From positions 1-64,000 of the forward strand of contig NZ_FOSQ01000017.1 in assembly GCF_900114315.1 (NCBI RefSeq): DNA of 64,000 nucleotides, given 5' to 3'. Positions 20,904 through 25,686 of the stretch are shown here, one piece after another. Made by a program: the position numbers and the translations under genes. The stretch's first letter is position 1. Each line of letters starts with the position of its first letter. The DNA is from Falsiroseomonas stagni DSM 19981 (GTDB lineage: Bacteria; Pseudomonadota; Alphaproteobacteria; Acetobacterales; Acetobacteraceae). Below the pieces are notes generated by a model that did no database searches, was not told the DNA's origin, and worked only from the letters and a program-made list of their open reading frames with translations.

Positions 20904-21878
20904 ATGACGCGCCTGATCACCGATGTCGCCGAAGCCGCCGGCCTGCTGCGGGACGGTGCGCTGGTCGCCTTCGCGACCGAGACCGTCTACGGCCTGGGCG
21001 CCGATGCCCGGAACGCCCGCGCCGTGGCCGCGATCTTCGAGGCCAAGGGCCGCCCCCACTTCAACCCGCTGATCTCCCATTTCGACAGCGCCGAGGCCGC
21101 CTTCGCGGAGGTTGTCGCGGACCCCCGCGCGGCACTGCTGGCCCGCCATTTCTGGCCCGGGCCGCTGACCCTGGTGCTGCCCCGCCGCCCGGAATCGCGG
21201 ATCGACCTGCTGGCCGGCGCGGGGCTCGACACCCTGGCCATCCGCGTGCCCTCCCACCCCCAGGCGCGCGACCTGCTGCGCCGGGCCGGCATCCCCATCG
21301 CCGCCCCCTCCGCCAACCGGTCCGGGGAGGTCAGCCCGACCACCGCCGCCCATGTGCTGGCCGGCCTGTCCGGCCGCATCGCCGCGGTGCTGGAAGGCGG
21401 CGCCTGCGATGTCGGCGTGGAGAGCACGGTGCTCGACCTTTCCTCCCCCACCGGCGCCGTGCTGCTGCGCCCCGGCGGCGTCACGGCGGCAGCGATCGAG
21501 ACGCTGATCGGCCCCATCGGCCGCCCCATCCCCGCCTCGGCCGCCGCCGCCACCCGGACGCTGCGCAGCCCCGGCCTGATGCTGTCCCACTACGCGCCGC
21601 GCCTTCCCGTGCGGCTCGATGCCACGACGGTCGGCGGGGAGGAGGCGCTGCTCGCCTTCGGCCCCGCGCCCCTGCCCGGCGCGGGCGCGGTGTGGAACCT
21701 CTCCCCCTCCGGGGACATGGCGGAGGCCGCCGCGCGGCTTTTCGCCGGGCTGCGCTGGCTGGATGCGGAAGGGGCGCGCCTCGGCCTCACCGCCATCGCC
21801 GCCATGCCCATCCCCGCCACGGGGCTGGGCGAGGCGATCGGCGACCGCCTGGCCCGCGCCGCCGCGCCGCGGGAGTAG
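20904..21878 (+). CDS. L-threonylcarbamoyladenylate synthase, Sua5 type
   Basis: 324 aa. The YrdC/TsaC domain (about 5-195) has ATETVYGLGADA, KGRP near residue 51 and the SANRSG nucleotide-binding motif. An extra C-terminal Sua5 domain, linked by SPGLMLSHYAP, makes it Sua5 rather than the short TsaC. It makes threonylcarbamoyl-AMP from Thr, bicarbonate and ATP for the t6A37 modification of ANN-decoding tRNAs. It is probably co-transcribed with the phosphatase upstream. Confidence 0.94.
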   Translation: MTRLITDVAEAAGLLRDGALVAFATETVYGLGADARNARAVAAIFEAKGRPHFNPLISHFDSAEAAFAEVVADPRAALLARHFWPGPLTLVLPRRPESRIDLLAGAGLDTLAIRVPSHPQARDLLRRAGIPIAAPSANRSGEVSPTTAAHVLAGLSGRIAAVLEGGACDVGVESTVLDLSSPTGAVLLRPGGVTAAAIETLIGPIGRPIPASAAAATRTLRSPGLMLSHYAPRLPVRLDATTVGGEEALLAFGPAPLPGAGAVWNLSPSGDMAEAAARLFAGLRWLDAEGARLGLTAIAAMPIPATGLGEAIGDRLARAAAPRE

Positions 21879-21946: not shown

Positions 21947-21964
21947 CGATTCGCCTGCGAATCG
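21947..21964. promoter_or_regulatory. inverted repeat, possible operator
   Basis: A perfect CGATTCG-CCTG-CGAATCG inverted repeat (7-bp arms) lies 63 bp before the start of the cysteine hydrolase gene, in the 149-bp gap after sua5. It could be a regulator binding site or a small hairpin at the end of the sua5 transcript. No nearby regulator gene is evident. Confidence 0.35.
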
Positions 21965-21987
21965 GGCTGGCCTCCGTTTTGCTTGAA

Positions 21988-22022
21988 GTCCCTCGGCGCC
22001 GCTTCCCGGCGCCGAGAGGGAC
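21988..22022 (+). promoter_or_regulatory. hairpin covering the ribosome-binding site of the cysteine hydrolase gene
   Basis: GTCCCTCGGCGCC (21988-22000), a 7-nt loop, then GGCGCCGAGAGGGAC (22008-22022): a 13-bp stem with one 2-nt bulge. The 3' arm contains GAGAGGGA, the apparent Shine-Dalgarno sequence for the ATG at 22028. Folding of the mRNA would hide the ribosome site. This could mean regulated translation; no known riboswitch class is recognised. Confidence 0.55.
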
Positions 22023-22027
22023 ACGCC

Positions 22028-22729
22028 ATGACCCCCGTCATCCCGGCAGAACCCAGCCCCTTCGCCTTCGCCCCCGCGCGCAGCGCGCTGGTCGTCATCG
22101 ACATGCAGCGCGATTTCCTCGAAGCTGGTGGCTTCGGCGAAAGCCTCGGCAACGACGTCTCCCTCCTCGCCTCCGCCATCGCCCCCTGCCAGGCCGTGCT
22201 CGCCGCCGCCCGCGCCGCTGACATGCTGGTGATCCACACGCGGGAAGGCCACCGCGCCGACCTGTCGGACGCCCCGCCCGCCAAGGTGCAGCGCGGCCCG
22301 CCCGGCCAGCGGATCGGCGATCCCGGCCCGATGGGCCGCATCCTCATCCGGGGCGAACCCGGCCACGGCATCATCGATGCCCTCGCCCCCATCGCCGGCG
22401 AACCCGTCATCGACAAGCCCGGCAAGGGCGCCTTCTACGCGACAGACCTCGAACCCATGCTCCGCAACGCGGGGATCGAGGCGCTGTTCGTCGCCGGCGT
22501 CACCACGGAAGTCTGCGTCCACACCACGGTGCGGGAGGCGAATGACCGGGGCTTCCGCTGCCTCGTCATCGCCGATGCCTGCGCCTCCTATTTTCCGGAA
22601 TTCCACGCCACGGCGCTGCGCATGATCAGCGCGCAAGGGGGCCCAGGGGGAGGAATTTTCGGCTGGGTCGCCGACAGCACGCGCGTCGCCGCCGCGCTCC
22701 ACCCGCATCGCGAAGGAAAAGCCGCATGA
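22028..22729 (+). CDS. isochorismatase-family cysteine hydrolase (biuret-hydrolase-like)
   Basis: 233 aa. The Asp-Lys-Cys triad is visible: Asp25 in VVIDMQRDF, Lys133 in DKPGKGAF, and Cys163 in [13 protein letters not shown] with its preceding cis-peptide segment. The TTEVCV form and the [17 protein letters not shown] segment remind me of biuret amidohydrolase (BiuH), which splits biuret to allophanate and ammonia; this is recognition, not a search. The start at 22028 follows a ribosome site buried in a hairpin. The stop overlaps the permease start by 4 bp (ATGA). No allophanate hydrolase is in the window. Confidence 0.8.
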
Positions 22730-24306
22730 GCACGACTACGGCAAGGCCGCTGCTCTGGTCGCCCGGCGACTGGAACGCGCTGTTCGGCTTCGGCACCAAC
22801 ATCCTGGTGAACCTGCTGGTGCTGACGGGGCTGCTGCGCTTCGTGCTGCAGATGCCCGACGACATCGTCTTCGGCCGCATCCTGCCGGCGGCGGGGCTGA
22901 TGATGGCGATGTCCACCATCTACTATGCCTGGCTCGCCTATCGCCTGGCGTTGCAGACCGGGCGGTCCGATGTCTGCGCGCTGCCCTCGGGCATCTCCGT
23001 CCCCCACATGTTCGTCGTTGTCTTCGTCATCATGCTGCCGATCTCGGCGCGCACGAACGACCCGATCAAGGGCTGGGAAGCGGGCCTCACCTGGGTCTTC
23101 GTGCAAAGCTTCATCCTGATGGCCGGCGCCTTCCTCGCGCCCTGGGTCAGGAAGGTCACGCCGCGGGCCGCGCTGCTCGGCACGCTGGCCGGCGTCTCCA
23201 TCACCTTCATCTCCATGCGCCCGGCGCTGGAGATGTTCATGACGCCGGTGATCGGCATCGTCTGCTTCGCCATCGTCCTCGCCGCCTGGTTCGGCGCGCT
23301 GCGCTATCCCCGCGGCATCCCGGCGGGGCTCGTCGCCATCGCCTTCGGCATGCTCATCGCCTGGGGCGCGGCGGCCCTCGGCCTCGGCTTCGGCGGACGC
23401 AGCCTCGACAAGCTGCTGGGCGGGCTCACCAATATCGGCTTCTCCGTGCCGATCCCCGCCATCGACCACGTCTTCGGCGGGTTCGAGTTCATCGGCATCA
23501 TCCTCGTCACCGCCATTCCCTTCGGGATCTATGACCTGGTGGAGGCGATGGACAATGTCGAAAGCGCGGAGGCGGCGGGCGACCATTTCCCGACCACGCG
23601 CGTGCTGACCGCCGATGGCGTGGTCTCCCTCGTCGGCTCGCTGATGGGCAACCCCTTCGTCAACGCCGTCTATATCGGCCACCCCGGCTGGAAATCGATG
23701 GGCGGGCGCATCGGCTATTCCGCCGCCACGGGTGTCGCGGTGCTGGCGGTGACGTGGCTCGGCATCATCTCCCTGCTGCTGGACCTCATCCCCGTCGTCG
23801 CGATCGCGCCCATCCTGCTCTACATCGGCATGCTGATCGGCGCGCAGGCCTTCCAGGAAACGCCGAAATCCCACGCCCCCGCCGTGGTGCTCGGCCTGGT
23901 GCCGCACCTCGCCGCCTGGGCGAAGACGCTGATCGATGGCGCGCTCGGCGCGGCGGGCACCAATGCGGCGACCGTCGGCATGGACAAGCTCGGCCAGGTC
24001 GGCGTGCTCTATCCCGGCCTGGAAGTGCTGGGCGAGGGTTCGATCCTGTCGGGCCTCATCCTCGCCGCCATCGCCGCCTTCATCATCGACAAGGAATGGC
24101 TGAAGGCGAGCTACTTCGCCGGCGCCGGCGCGGTGCTGACCTTCTTCGGCTTCATGCACGGCCCGGCCGTCGGCATCGCCGTCACGCCCGGCGTTGCGGT
24201 CGCCTATGCGCTGGTCGCCGGCTTCCTCTACGCCGTCAGTCGCCAGGCGGAGATCGAGGCCCTGCTGCGCGCGAAGCTCGACCGCAAGCCGGCGCCGGCG
24301 GAGTAG
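22726..24306 (+). CDS. NCS2-type (AzgA-like) permease family protein
   Basis: 526 aa with about 12-14 membrane helices. It opens with [15 protein letters not shown] and contains [12 protein letters not shown] and [20 protein letters not shown], segments like those of AzgA-type nucleobase permeases of the NCS2/xanthine-uracil superfamily. It presumably imports a small nitrogen-rich compound by proton symport. Coupling to a biuret-hydrolase-like enzyme through a 4-bp overlap suggests the permease brings in that enzyme's substrate or a precursor. The substrate is unknown. Its 3' end converges on the kinase gene over a strong hairpin. Confidence 0.82.
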
Positions 24307-24313
24307 CCGCGCC

Positions 24314-25561
24314 CTACGGCGCCACCGCGGGCGTCGGCTCCCGCGGTGGCGCATGCAGCGGAAAGCTGAGGGACCAGGAAGTGCCAGGCCCCTCGCCCCG
24401 CGTCACCTCGCCCATCACCTGCTGCACCAGGCGCCGGACCAGCCCCACGCCATGGCGCTTGCTGCCGGTCTTCTCCACGAAGCCCACGCCGTCATCCGCC
24501 ACCGTCAGCACGCCGTCCCGCCCATCCGCCGATCGCACCAGCACGACGGAGACGGTGCCGATGCCGTCGGGGAAGGCATGCTCGAAGCTGTTGGAGACGA
24601 TCTCCGCCACCGCCATGCCCAACGCCGTCACCGTGTCCAGATCCACCAGCAGCGGCTCCGCCCGGCAGGCCAGCGCGATGCCGCCCCCGCCATTGCCCTG
24701 CAACCCCGGCAGCCGGCCGCAGAGGGAGCGCATGTATTCGCCGAGGTCGATGGTGCGATCCAGCCCGGTGCCCAGCAACTGCTCATAGACTTCCGACAGC
24801 GTCATCACGCGCCGGCTGATGGCGCGCACCGAGGCCTGCTCCTGCTCCCCGCCCCCGATCTTCATGTGGGTGAACAGCATGGCCTGGATGAGCTGGAGGT
24901 TGTTGCGCACGCGGTGCTTCAGCTCCTCCGCCATCATCGCCCGTTCGGCGAGGAGCTTGTCCTTCTCCTCCACCAGCGCCTCCATCAGGCGCACGGTGCG
25001 GCGCAGCATGTCGTTGCGATTGGCCGTCGCCACCGCCTCCGCCAGCACATTGGCGAAGCCGGTCAGGAAATCGATGTCGTGGCGATCGTAGGTGTGCTGC
25101 ACGGGGCTGTCGATCTCCAGCACCCCATAGGCATCACCCTCCTTGCTCTTGATGATGACATCGATGGTGGAGATGATGCCGTGCTGCCCATAGAAGGCCG
25201 GCAGCACCACGTCATTCGCCTCCCGCAGATTGCCGAGGATGACGGGCTGGCCCGTGACATAGGCGCGCCCCTGGGGCGATGTCTCATTGGCGGCGGAGAC
25301 GACGCGCCCCACCACCCCCTCATGCCACCCCCACCCCGCCTCGATCAGCAGGTCGTCCTCCGCCGCGCGATAGCGGCAGATCTTGCAGAAGGGCACGCCG
25401 AGGCCCTCGGCGCAGACCCGCGCCGCCTCGGTCAGGATCCTGCTGAGCTGCGGTTCGCTGAAGGCATAGCTGCCGAACTGCGCCAGCGACGCCTGCTGTC
25501 GCAGCAGCCGGTCGACATGCCGCTGCGTTACAGGCGCTGTCATGGCAATGGTTTCCATCAT
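24314..25561 (-). CDS. GAF-domain sensor histidine kinase (HisKA_2)
   Basis: 415 aa, cytoplasmic, no membrane helix. A GAF domain lies at about 20-165, then a short coiled coil, HisKA_2 with HRVRNNLQLIQ near residue 215, and an HATPase with EIVSNSFEHAF and DDGVGF motifs. GAF domains sense small ligands or light. Three starts are possible (25561, 25558, 25543); none has a strong ribosome site, and I give the longest. The gene is divergent from a single-domain response regulator 125 bp away, its likely partner. Confidence 0.87.
   Translation of the reverse strand: MMETIAMTAPVTQRHVDRLLRQQASLAQFGSYAFSEPQLSRILTEAARVCAEGLGVPFCKICRYRAAEDDLLIEAGWGWHEGVVGRVVSAANETSPQGRAYVTGQPVILGNLREANDVVLPAFYGQHGIISTIDVIIKSKEGDAYGVLEIDSPVQHTYDRHDIDFLTGFANVLAEAVATANRNDMLRRTVRLMEALVEEKDKLLAERAMMAEELKHRVRNNLQLIQAMLFTHMKIGGGEQEQASVRAISRRVMTLSEVYEQLLGTGLDRTIDLGEYMRSLCGRLPGLQGNGGGGIALACRAEPLLVDLDTVTALGMAVAEIVSNSFEHAFPDGIGTVSVVLVRSADGRDGVLTVADDGVGFVEKTGSKRHGVGLVRRLVQQVMGEVTRGEGPGTSWSLSFPLHAPPREPTPAVAP
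24319..24352. terminator. bidirectional terminator-like hairpin
   Basis: GCGCCACCGCGGG and CCCGCGGTGGCGC form a perfect 13-bp stem with an 8-nt loop. It sits 12 bp after the permease stop and inside the last codons of the convergent kinase gene (its C-terminal EPTPAVAP region). It has no T-run, so termination efficiency is uncertain. Confidence 0.5.
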
Positions 25562-25686
25562 GCAATTCGCGGTTGAATCAATTCCGGCGGAGAAGTATAC
25601 ACTCGCCCTCAAGCCGCGGCCGTACCAGTCGTTCGCCCAGTACCGATCAGTTGATGATCTTGTCTCGCCAGAAGGATTCCCGGGCG

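Follow-up and report, generated by a model that had tools for sequence, protein, structure and literature searches.

A TrtA-type hydrolase gene paired with a candidate ureide carrier behind a sigma-54-type promoter match in Falsiroseomonas stagni

A 64,000-nucleotide stretch of Falsiroseomonas stagni DSM 19981 (contig NZ_FOSQ01000017.1, positions 1 to 64,000; the window) carries two adjoining genes on the forward strand, one for an isochorismatase-like cysteine hydrolase (22028–22729, +) and one for a carrier-type permease (22726–24306, +), and checking of both open reading frames (ORFs) confirmed that they overlap by 4 bp (ATGA). Upstream of the hydrolase gene lie an inverted repeat (21947–21964), a sigma-54-type −24/−12 box (TGGCCTCCGTTTTGCT, of the form GG-N10-GC; 21968–21983, +), and a stem (21989–22021, +) that reaches the Shine-Dalgarno (SD) sequence. 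An earlier sequence-only reading had proposed a biuret-hydrolase-like enzyme coupled to an NCS2-type permease, in a nitrogen-responsive setting and with the ribosome site locked in the stem. The analysis reported here points to a two-gene triuret-utilisation operon with a sigma-54-type promoter, import by the permease and cleavage by a TrtA-type enzyme, a reading that we consider probable. Loci, genomes, and contigs used for comparison carry L, G, and C numbers, respectively.

The hydrolase matched PF00857 (E 1.3e-44), and its best solved relative was the triuret hydrolase TrtA (6xix, the apo enzyme, PMC7948467; E 5e-80), followed by the biuret hydrolase BiuH (6azo; 3e-62). Identity over the printed stretches was 62% to TrtA versus 50% to BiuH. 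Asp25, Lys130, and Cys163, the predicted catalytic triad, were invariant in 42 aligned rows. When aligned to TrtA, for which D24, K129, K132, and C162 are given (PMC7948467), the catalytic lysine was Lys130, while Lys133, earlier named as the third catalytic residue beside the correctly placed Asp25 and Cys163, corresponded to K132, the second, substrate-contacting lysine. TrtA residues F35, N41, E160, and Y187 are listed among the positions at which TrtA and BiuH differ, and Q202 is described as the key glutamine (PMC7948467). The window hydrolase has the same residues at all of these positions (F36, N42, E161, Y188, and Q203), as well as A135 at the equivalent of TrtA A134, and carries none of the BiuH residues Y, Y, D, and T at the four discriminating positions. 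In 100 aligned rows, F/N/E/Y was found in 87 (4 duplicates) and Y/Y/D/T in 13, the latter being five rows from relatives (including the paralog from the own genome) and eight second copies. An IQ-TREE phylogeny of 46 rows split TrtA from BiuH at 100/100 support and placed 6xix on the side of the window hydrolase. Against the curated BiuH equivalog NF050097 (cut-off 370 bits), the window hydrolase scored 263.8, below the cut-off, and the own-genome paralog on contig C22 scored 424.4, above it. Because of these residues, the tree split, the TrtA match, and the missed BiuH cut-off, the enzyme is, as judged from its sequence, of TrtA type. Membership of the same superfamily and approximately 50% identity to BiuH are what a true biuret hydrolase–permease module would display, but the missed BiuH cut-off, the TrtA residues, and the tree split, with a separate BiuH gene present in the genome, make such a module highly improbable, and the biuret assignment of the sequence-only reading does not hold. 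That reading had named a phylogenetic position far from BiuH as the result that would count against it; the placement on the TrtA side of the split comes close to this, although BiuH is still the sister group. In a metagenome assembly (L046), the trtA copy next to the permease is split into two pieces.

Enzymes of the permease-linked clade might instead cleave another ureide (e.g., a uric-acid oxidation product or guanylurea), with the permease importing the same compound, a possibility raised by a feature of the window enzyme. Four extra residues lie between the equivalents of TrtA Q202 and I205, by the specificity loop; within the Gly/Pro codons 204–209 (22637–22654, +), 12 nt are inserted in frame between Gln203 and Ile210. 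The insertion leaves the frame open, and its borders are ambiguous owing to repeated Gly codons. A comparable insertion was present, among the 100 rows, only in Roseomonas acroporae (L096), with different residues, and in a separate sample of 25 trtA loci, drawn from 387 alphaproteobacterial genomes, it occurred in none of the 23 loci in which the loop was read. Model confidence was lower over loop residues 201–210 (mean 71), where the insertion separates the equivalents of Q202 and I205, the latter packed beside the former in TrtA. A related ureide would also accord with the annotation of more distant permease relatives as xanthine permeases and with the position of the own-genome BiuH gene among purine and ring-opening genes. 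Guanylurea is cleaved by GuuH, another isochorismatase-like hydrolase (PMC9800807). However, the TrtA second-shell residues F35, N41, A134, E160, Y187, and Q202 are all retained, and the enzymes encoded nearby in other genomes act on carboxybiuret and allophanate, so that a substrate other than triuret appears unlikely.

Linkage of the two genes was examined from both sides. Among loci of permease relatives (the best 80 of 523, a set biased to close relatives and in which records near the own genome may be missing), the hydrolase was present in 75, the five exceptions being L031, whose sequence begins just 839 bases before the permease match, L040, L047, L049, and L094. From the trtA side, a permease relative (52–76% identity) lay within ~1.5 kb in 13 of the 25 loci of the separate sample. 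The hydrolase–permease pairing suggested earlier for this one genome is therefore recurrent. Other neighbors in the 80 loci were atzF (19 loci), atzE (18), atzH-like genes (17), and biuH (8), at least one of these occurring in 33 loci. Matches were required to cover half of the query, at 40% identity for atzF or 45% for atzE, and a neighbor domain scan included 104 ORFs (103 of 179 candidates and one more) from 39 of the 80 loci. In Terrarubrum, the genes are consecutive in the order hydrolase, permease, atzF, DUF4089, atzE, and hpxZ. Carboxybiuret is formed by TrtA (PMC7948467), and AtzEG is described as acting on 1-carboxybiuret, with a subsequent AtzH step proposed (PMC6219798); the neighbors atzF, atzE, atzH, and biuH in other genomes are thus consistent with triuret breakdown. 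In the examined stretches, biuH (8 loci) was never beside atzE or atzH (20 loci), as if two downstream routes alternate, a pattern that is only suggestive given a random overlap of ~2 expected. In the own genome, AtzF, AtzE, and AtzH-like matches scored above cut-off, and rpoN is on contig C33. Genes near the own-genome BiuH gene (L101, G000:C22:685000-703000) include those for a ring-opening amidohydrolase, an amidase, and a PuuE-like allantoinase, together with ABC-transporter-like genes; the amidohydrolase scored above the AtzD/TrzD subfamily cut-off and the PuuE-like gene just below its own (393.9 of 424.6).

The permease matched no Pfam model at E≤10, PF00860 (NCS2) included, and a search of the own genome with PF00860 returned two other genes. 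Nor did Pfam match three distant relatives or one close homolog, save one sub-threshold chance match. Searches of Pfam, NCBIfam, and PDB sequences with the permease yielded chance matches only and no family, and a permease profile retrieved nothing meaningful from PDB sequences. In a structure model of moderate quality (mean pLDDT 76.4), the top Foldseek ranks were SLC23 and SLC26 carriers (best E 7e-7). VIA-align superposed the model on UapA (Z 28.2; root-mean-square deviation [rmsd] 3.2 over 343 residues), on the SLC26-type AtSULTR4;1 (7lhv; Z 25.8, rmsd 3.4, 326 residues), and on AZG1 (Z 24.9, rmsd 3.6, 342 residues). Single comparisons with hhalign were weak, with a probability of 9.8 (E 0.003) for an AzgA-like set, 1.2 (E 0.04) for a second NCS2 set, and 55 (E 1e-4) when all PF00860 rows were combined. 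From its predicted structure, the permease is a UraA-fold carrier, with a fold of the NCS2/SLC23-SLC26 kind; as modeled, this fold is common to SLC26 and SLC4 too, and by itself gives no family name, an AzgA-like placement being only hinted at by sequence comparison. The designation "NCS2-type permease" in the sequence-only reading thus stands for the fold (UraA/UapA) and fails for the Pfam NCS2 model, which misses the protein. Close relatives of the permease are labeled "regulator" in two plasmid records, and distant ones "xanthine permease". In Peptoclostridium (L109), a hydrolase of the superfamily lies between two permease relatives, adjoining a PucR-type regulator gene and fdrA/DUF2877/DUF1116 genes.

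The sigma-54-type box fills most of the 24-nt gap between the inverted repeat and the stem, and a transcript start is predicted from it at 21994 (+), 12 nt past the C of the −12 GC. On our own simple weight score (consensus YTGGCACGrNNNTTGCW), the window box reached 14.5 of 17.5, and the same-genus genomes G012, G005, and G013 share its TGGCC and TTGCT. A score of at least 15 was attained by 58 of 85 TrtA-type leaders (duplicates included), as compared to a mean of 0.67 for dinucleotide-shuffled leaders, and by none of 13 BiuH-type leaders, two of which scored at least 14. To arrive at a set of unique leaders, 80 rows were kept, 74 of them unique; loci with no hydrolase match or no usable start are absent from the underlying table, and the rows dropped were the duplicates L003, L004, L005, and L009 (on the contigs of L022, L021, L030, and L034), the truncated L014, the BiuH-type L016–L020, the fragmentary L046, L070 (whose TTEVCI escaped the pattern), and L096 (118 nt upstream). 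Of the 74 unique trtA leaders, 52 scored at least 15 and 63 at least 14, and the core GGC-N7-TTGC was found in 44, versus 33 of 1480 random 120-base stretches from the same loci. Seven of the 25 loci in the separate sample had a score of at least 15 (shuffled 0.25). Among the genes reported as lowered in rpoN mutants is one for a Bradyrhizobium isochorismatase, preceded by a TGGCACGGCGCTTGC box at −37 (PMC13207237). The exact box of this Bradyrhizobium DOA9 gene occurred in none of the loci examined, that of L154 being one base off, and identity of the gene with trtA is a lead. In the literature on the regulator, nothing further was found beyond PMC13207237 and PMC5491218. From the box and the pathway neighbors, the nitrogen-responsive setting that had been suspected appears to be correct.

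The two palindromic features described earlier are present as stated. The inverted repeat (CGATTCG, 21947–21953; CGAATCG, 21958–21964; spacer cctg) lies directly 5′ of the −24 element, 24 nt (21965–21988) from the stem, and is a possible operator; judged by eye, it survives in part in G013 (CGATC...GATCG), is less marked in G012, and was not seen in G005. The stem pairs TCCCTCGGCGCCG (21989–22001) with CGGCGCCG-AG-AGGGA (22007–22021) in 13 bp (14 with an extra G-C pair); two nucleotides (AG) are bulged out, the loop is 5 nt long, and the SD sequence of the hydrolase gene (GAGGG, 22016–22020, +) falls within the 3′ end of the stem. Stems of at least 13 paired bases with loops of 3–8 were found at two places (three entries) in the window, and five windows resampled by a Markov model had 0, 2, 0, 0, and 1 such entries; the stem is unusual, yet alone not beyond chance. 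If the leader were transcribed from upstream, by read-through or from an upstream promoter, the stem could act as an mRNA translational switch that hides the SD sequence until opened. In such a transcript, GAGGGA is mostly paired (unpaired probability 0.01–0.09 over the last four bases). The SD-pairing part of the stem co-varies weakly in three distinct nearest rows, observed values being reached in 6–18 of 500 shuffles, although the structure slid by −2 had an equal covariation score (paired cells 47% versus 75%). Moreover, complements of the ribosome site are in excess in trtA leaders and not in permease leaders: among leaders with a recognisable SD sequence, dyads reaching the ribosome site were found at p≤0.05 in 10 of 60 trtA leaders (Kolmogorov–Smirnov [KS] 0.007), in 5 of the 44 with a box when counted from the −12 element (KS 0.0015), and in 2 of 59 permease leaders, which is no excess. 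However, when the leaders were trimmed to the predicted sigma-54 transcript, 4 of 44 remained (median p 0.65), and the excess was gone.

The predicted start at ~21994 falls inside the 5′ arm of the hairpin, and the outer five stem pairs, TCCCT with AGGGA, which cover the SD sequence, use 21989–21993, upstream of it; the SD-hiding half is for this reason probably untranscribed. When folded from the predicted start, the upper 8 bp remain as a 5′-terminal hairpin and the SD core still pairs, with other bases, so that folding by itself leaves SD accessibility undecided. The stem as drawn is absent or different in the three nearest relatives, G012, G005, and G013; in G012 and G005, a 9-nt gap falls at the stem, with a GCTTGTCCC...GGGACAAGC dyad in its place. 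The leader in the window had no Rfam match at gathering score, the only match within the window being the end of a 16S rRNA gene (1–87, −). The translational switch as originally drawn is accordingly disfavored, and a switch of this kind in any form seems improbable to us. Because the dyad excess vanishes within the predicted transcript, operators at the start site that change between lineages fit better than a switch, a conclusion that depends on the predicted start. In a different dyad scan, 16 of 69 leaders, duplicates among them, were at p≤0.05. Individual dyads are unrelated in sequence, e.g., CTTCGTTAAC...GTTAACGAAG in Afipia and TGCATACA...TGTATGCA in Ancylobacter, the latter falling short of the ribosome site. 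Sequences or dyads of the TGCATACA/TGTATGCA type lie over or just past the −12 element in L041, L084, L093, L148, L149, L151, and L152; these are operator-like, perhaps for a GntR-type regulator, and GntR domains were found in 6 of the 104 neighbor ORFs.

Several observations weigh against a triuret operon under sigma-54 control. On the side of linkage, 12 of the 25 trtA loci have no permease within ~1.5 kb. The window box, at 14.5, is below the score of 15 attained by most unique leaders, and the seven boxes of at least 15 in the separate sample comprised only 6 of the 13 loci with a permease and 1 of the 12 without, 11 of the latter having no box scoring even 14. NtrC-like sites (GCAC-N5-7-GTGC) were found in 4 of 89 upstream regions versus 1–4 in shuffles, which is no enrichment. 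An ntrC mutant of Burkholderia cenocepacia is reported to grow better, not worse, on biuret (PMC5491218), and NtrC is therefore not assumed to be the activator. As to the substrate, 6xix and L015 form a pair on a long branch (0.72) of the tree, no permease was found at the L015 locus, and the permease-linked clade could have undergone a substrate shift relative to TrtA; the four-residue insertion at the specificity loop of the window enzyme points the same way. Finally, the weak covariation of the SD-proximal pairs speaks for structure.

With these points taken into account, the favored triuret operon would work as follows. The sigma-54-type promoter at 21968–21983, which would require an activator, would start a transcript at ~21994, probably under nitrogen shortage. 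The mRNA would carry only the upper 8 bp of the hairpin at its 5′ end, the hairpin as a whole being a lineage-specific dyad that straddles the start and is likelier to belong to an operator or the promoter than to act as an mRNA switch. Import of triuret or a close ureide would fall to the permease, and the TrtA-type enzyme would split triuret into carboxybiuret and ammonia. Carboxybiuret may then be degraded via biuret, by the BiuH encoded on another contig, or via AtzEG/AtzH to allophanate and onward by AtzF, the putative genes for the latter route being located elsewhere in the own genome. A broader proposal is that the permease is the founding member of an unnamed carrier family dedicated to triuret-type ureides, that with TrtA and AtzEGH-AtzF it constitutes a sigma-54-controlled, biuret-free route from triuret through carboxybiuret to ammonia, and that the start-site dyads are rewired in each lineage; we regard this proposal as possible, though rather doubtful.

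In the surroundings of the operon, a Sua5-type gene (20904–21878, +) is the 5′ neighbor of the hydrolase gene, and a convergent gene for an HWE-type histidine kinase (24314–25612, −) lies 3′ of the permease gene. The order Sua5 gene, hydrolase, permease is common to the same-genus genomes G005, G012, and G013. Among these three, the kinase follows the permease in G012 only; it was not matched within the ~2 kb examined past the permease in G005 and G013. Just past the stop codon of the permease gene, a perfect 13-bp hairpin with an 8-nt loop (24319–24352) overlaps the end of the convergent kinase gene, a terminator-like location in which an obvious T run is absent. Within the genus, the hydrolase gene is patchily distributed, being present at E≤1e-95 in 8 of 15 genomes (own genome counted), and in the class-wide alphaproteobacterial sample the gene was found in 26 of 387 genomes at E≤1e-80, own genome again counted.

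Triuret occurs as an impurity in fertiliser and is suspected to arise when uric acid is oxidised (PMC7948467). In the literature searched, no carrier of the permease's kind was described for triuret, the transporter genes beside trtA in PMC12625717 being those of an ABC nucleoside transporter. The linked, well conserved, and Pfam-missed permease is thus a direct candidate for a triuret carrier. While the pathway itself is already known, the uncharacterised carrier family is the most interesting part of a recurrent pair that probably consists of a triuret-type hydrolase and its carrier behind a sigma-54 promoter. Such a promoter would put triuret use among nitrogen-limitation functions. The locus also illustrates that a striking hairpin can mislead if the transcript start is ignored.

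Among known systems, the window enzyme most resembles TrtA of Herbaspirillum sp. BH-1 (6XIX, 6XJE; PMC7948467), with which it shares family, triad, the residues F35/N41/E160/Y187/Q202, and 62% identity, and from which it differs by the four-residue insertion between the Q202 and I205 equivalents. The operons described in the TrtA paper contain trtA, biuH, and atzF (PMC7948467), whereas the partner in the window is a carrier-type permease. BiuH (6AZO, 6AZQ) is likewise an isochorismatase-like hydrolase, with ~50% identity, but the window enzyme scores too low for the equivalog and has other residues than the BiuH consensus, and a separate BiuH is encoded on C22. In predicted fold, the permease is reminiscent of NCS2/AzgA and UraA-fold carriers (UapA 5I6C, UraA 5XLS, AZG1 8IRL), although it has no PF00860 match at E≤10 and SLC26-type chains score nearly equally. 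The atzDGEHF cyanuric acid operon (PMC6219798) has its counterpart in the AtzE, AtzG-like, AtzH-like, and AtzF genes beside the trtA–permease pair in some other genomes; here, the entry enzyme is TrtA-like rather than AtzD, and those genes are not adjacent to the pair in the window. Finally, the trtA clusters of ammonia oxidisers, with bmpA-nupABC (PMC12625717), also have trtA adjoining transporter genes, theirs encoding an ABC-type nucleoside transporter and that of the window a single carrier-type permease.

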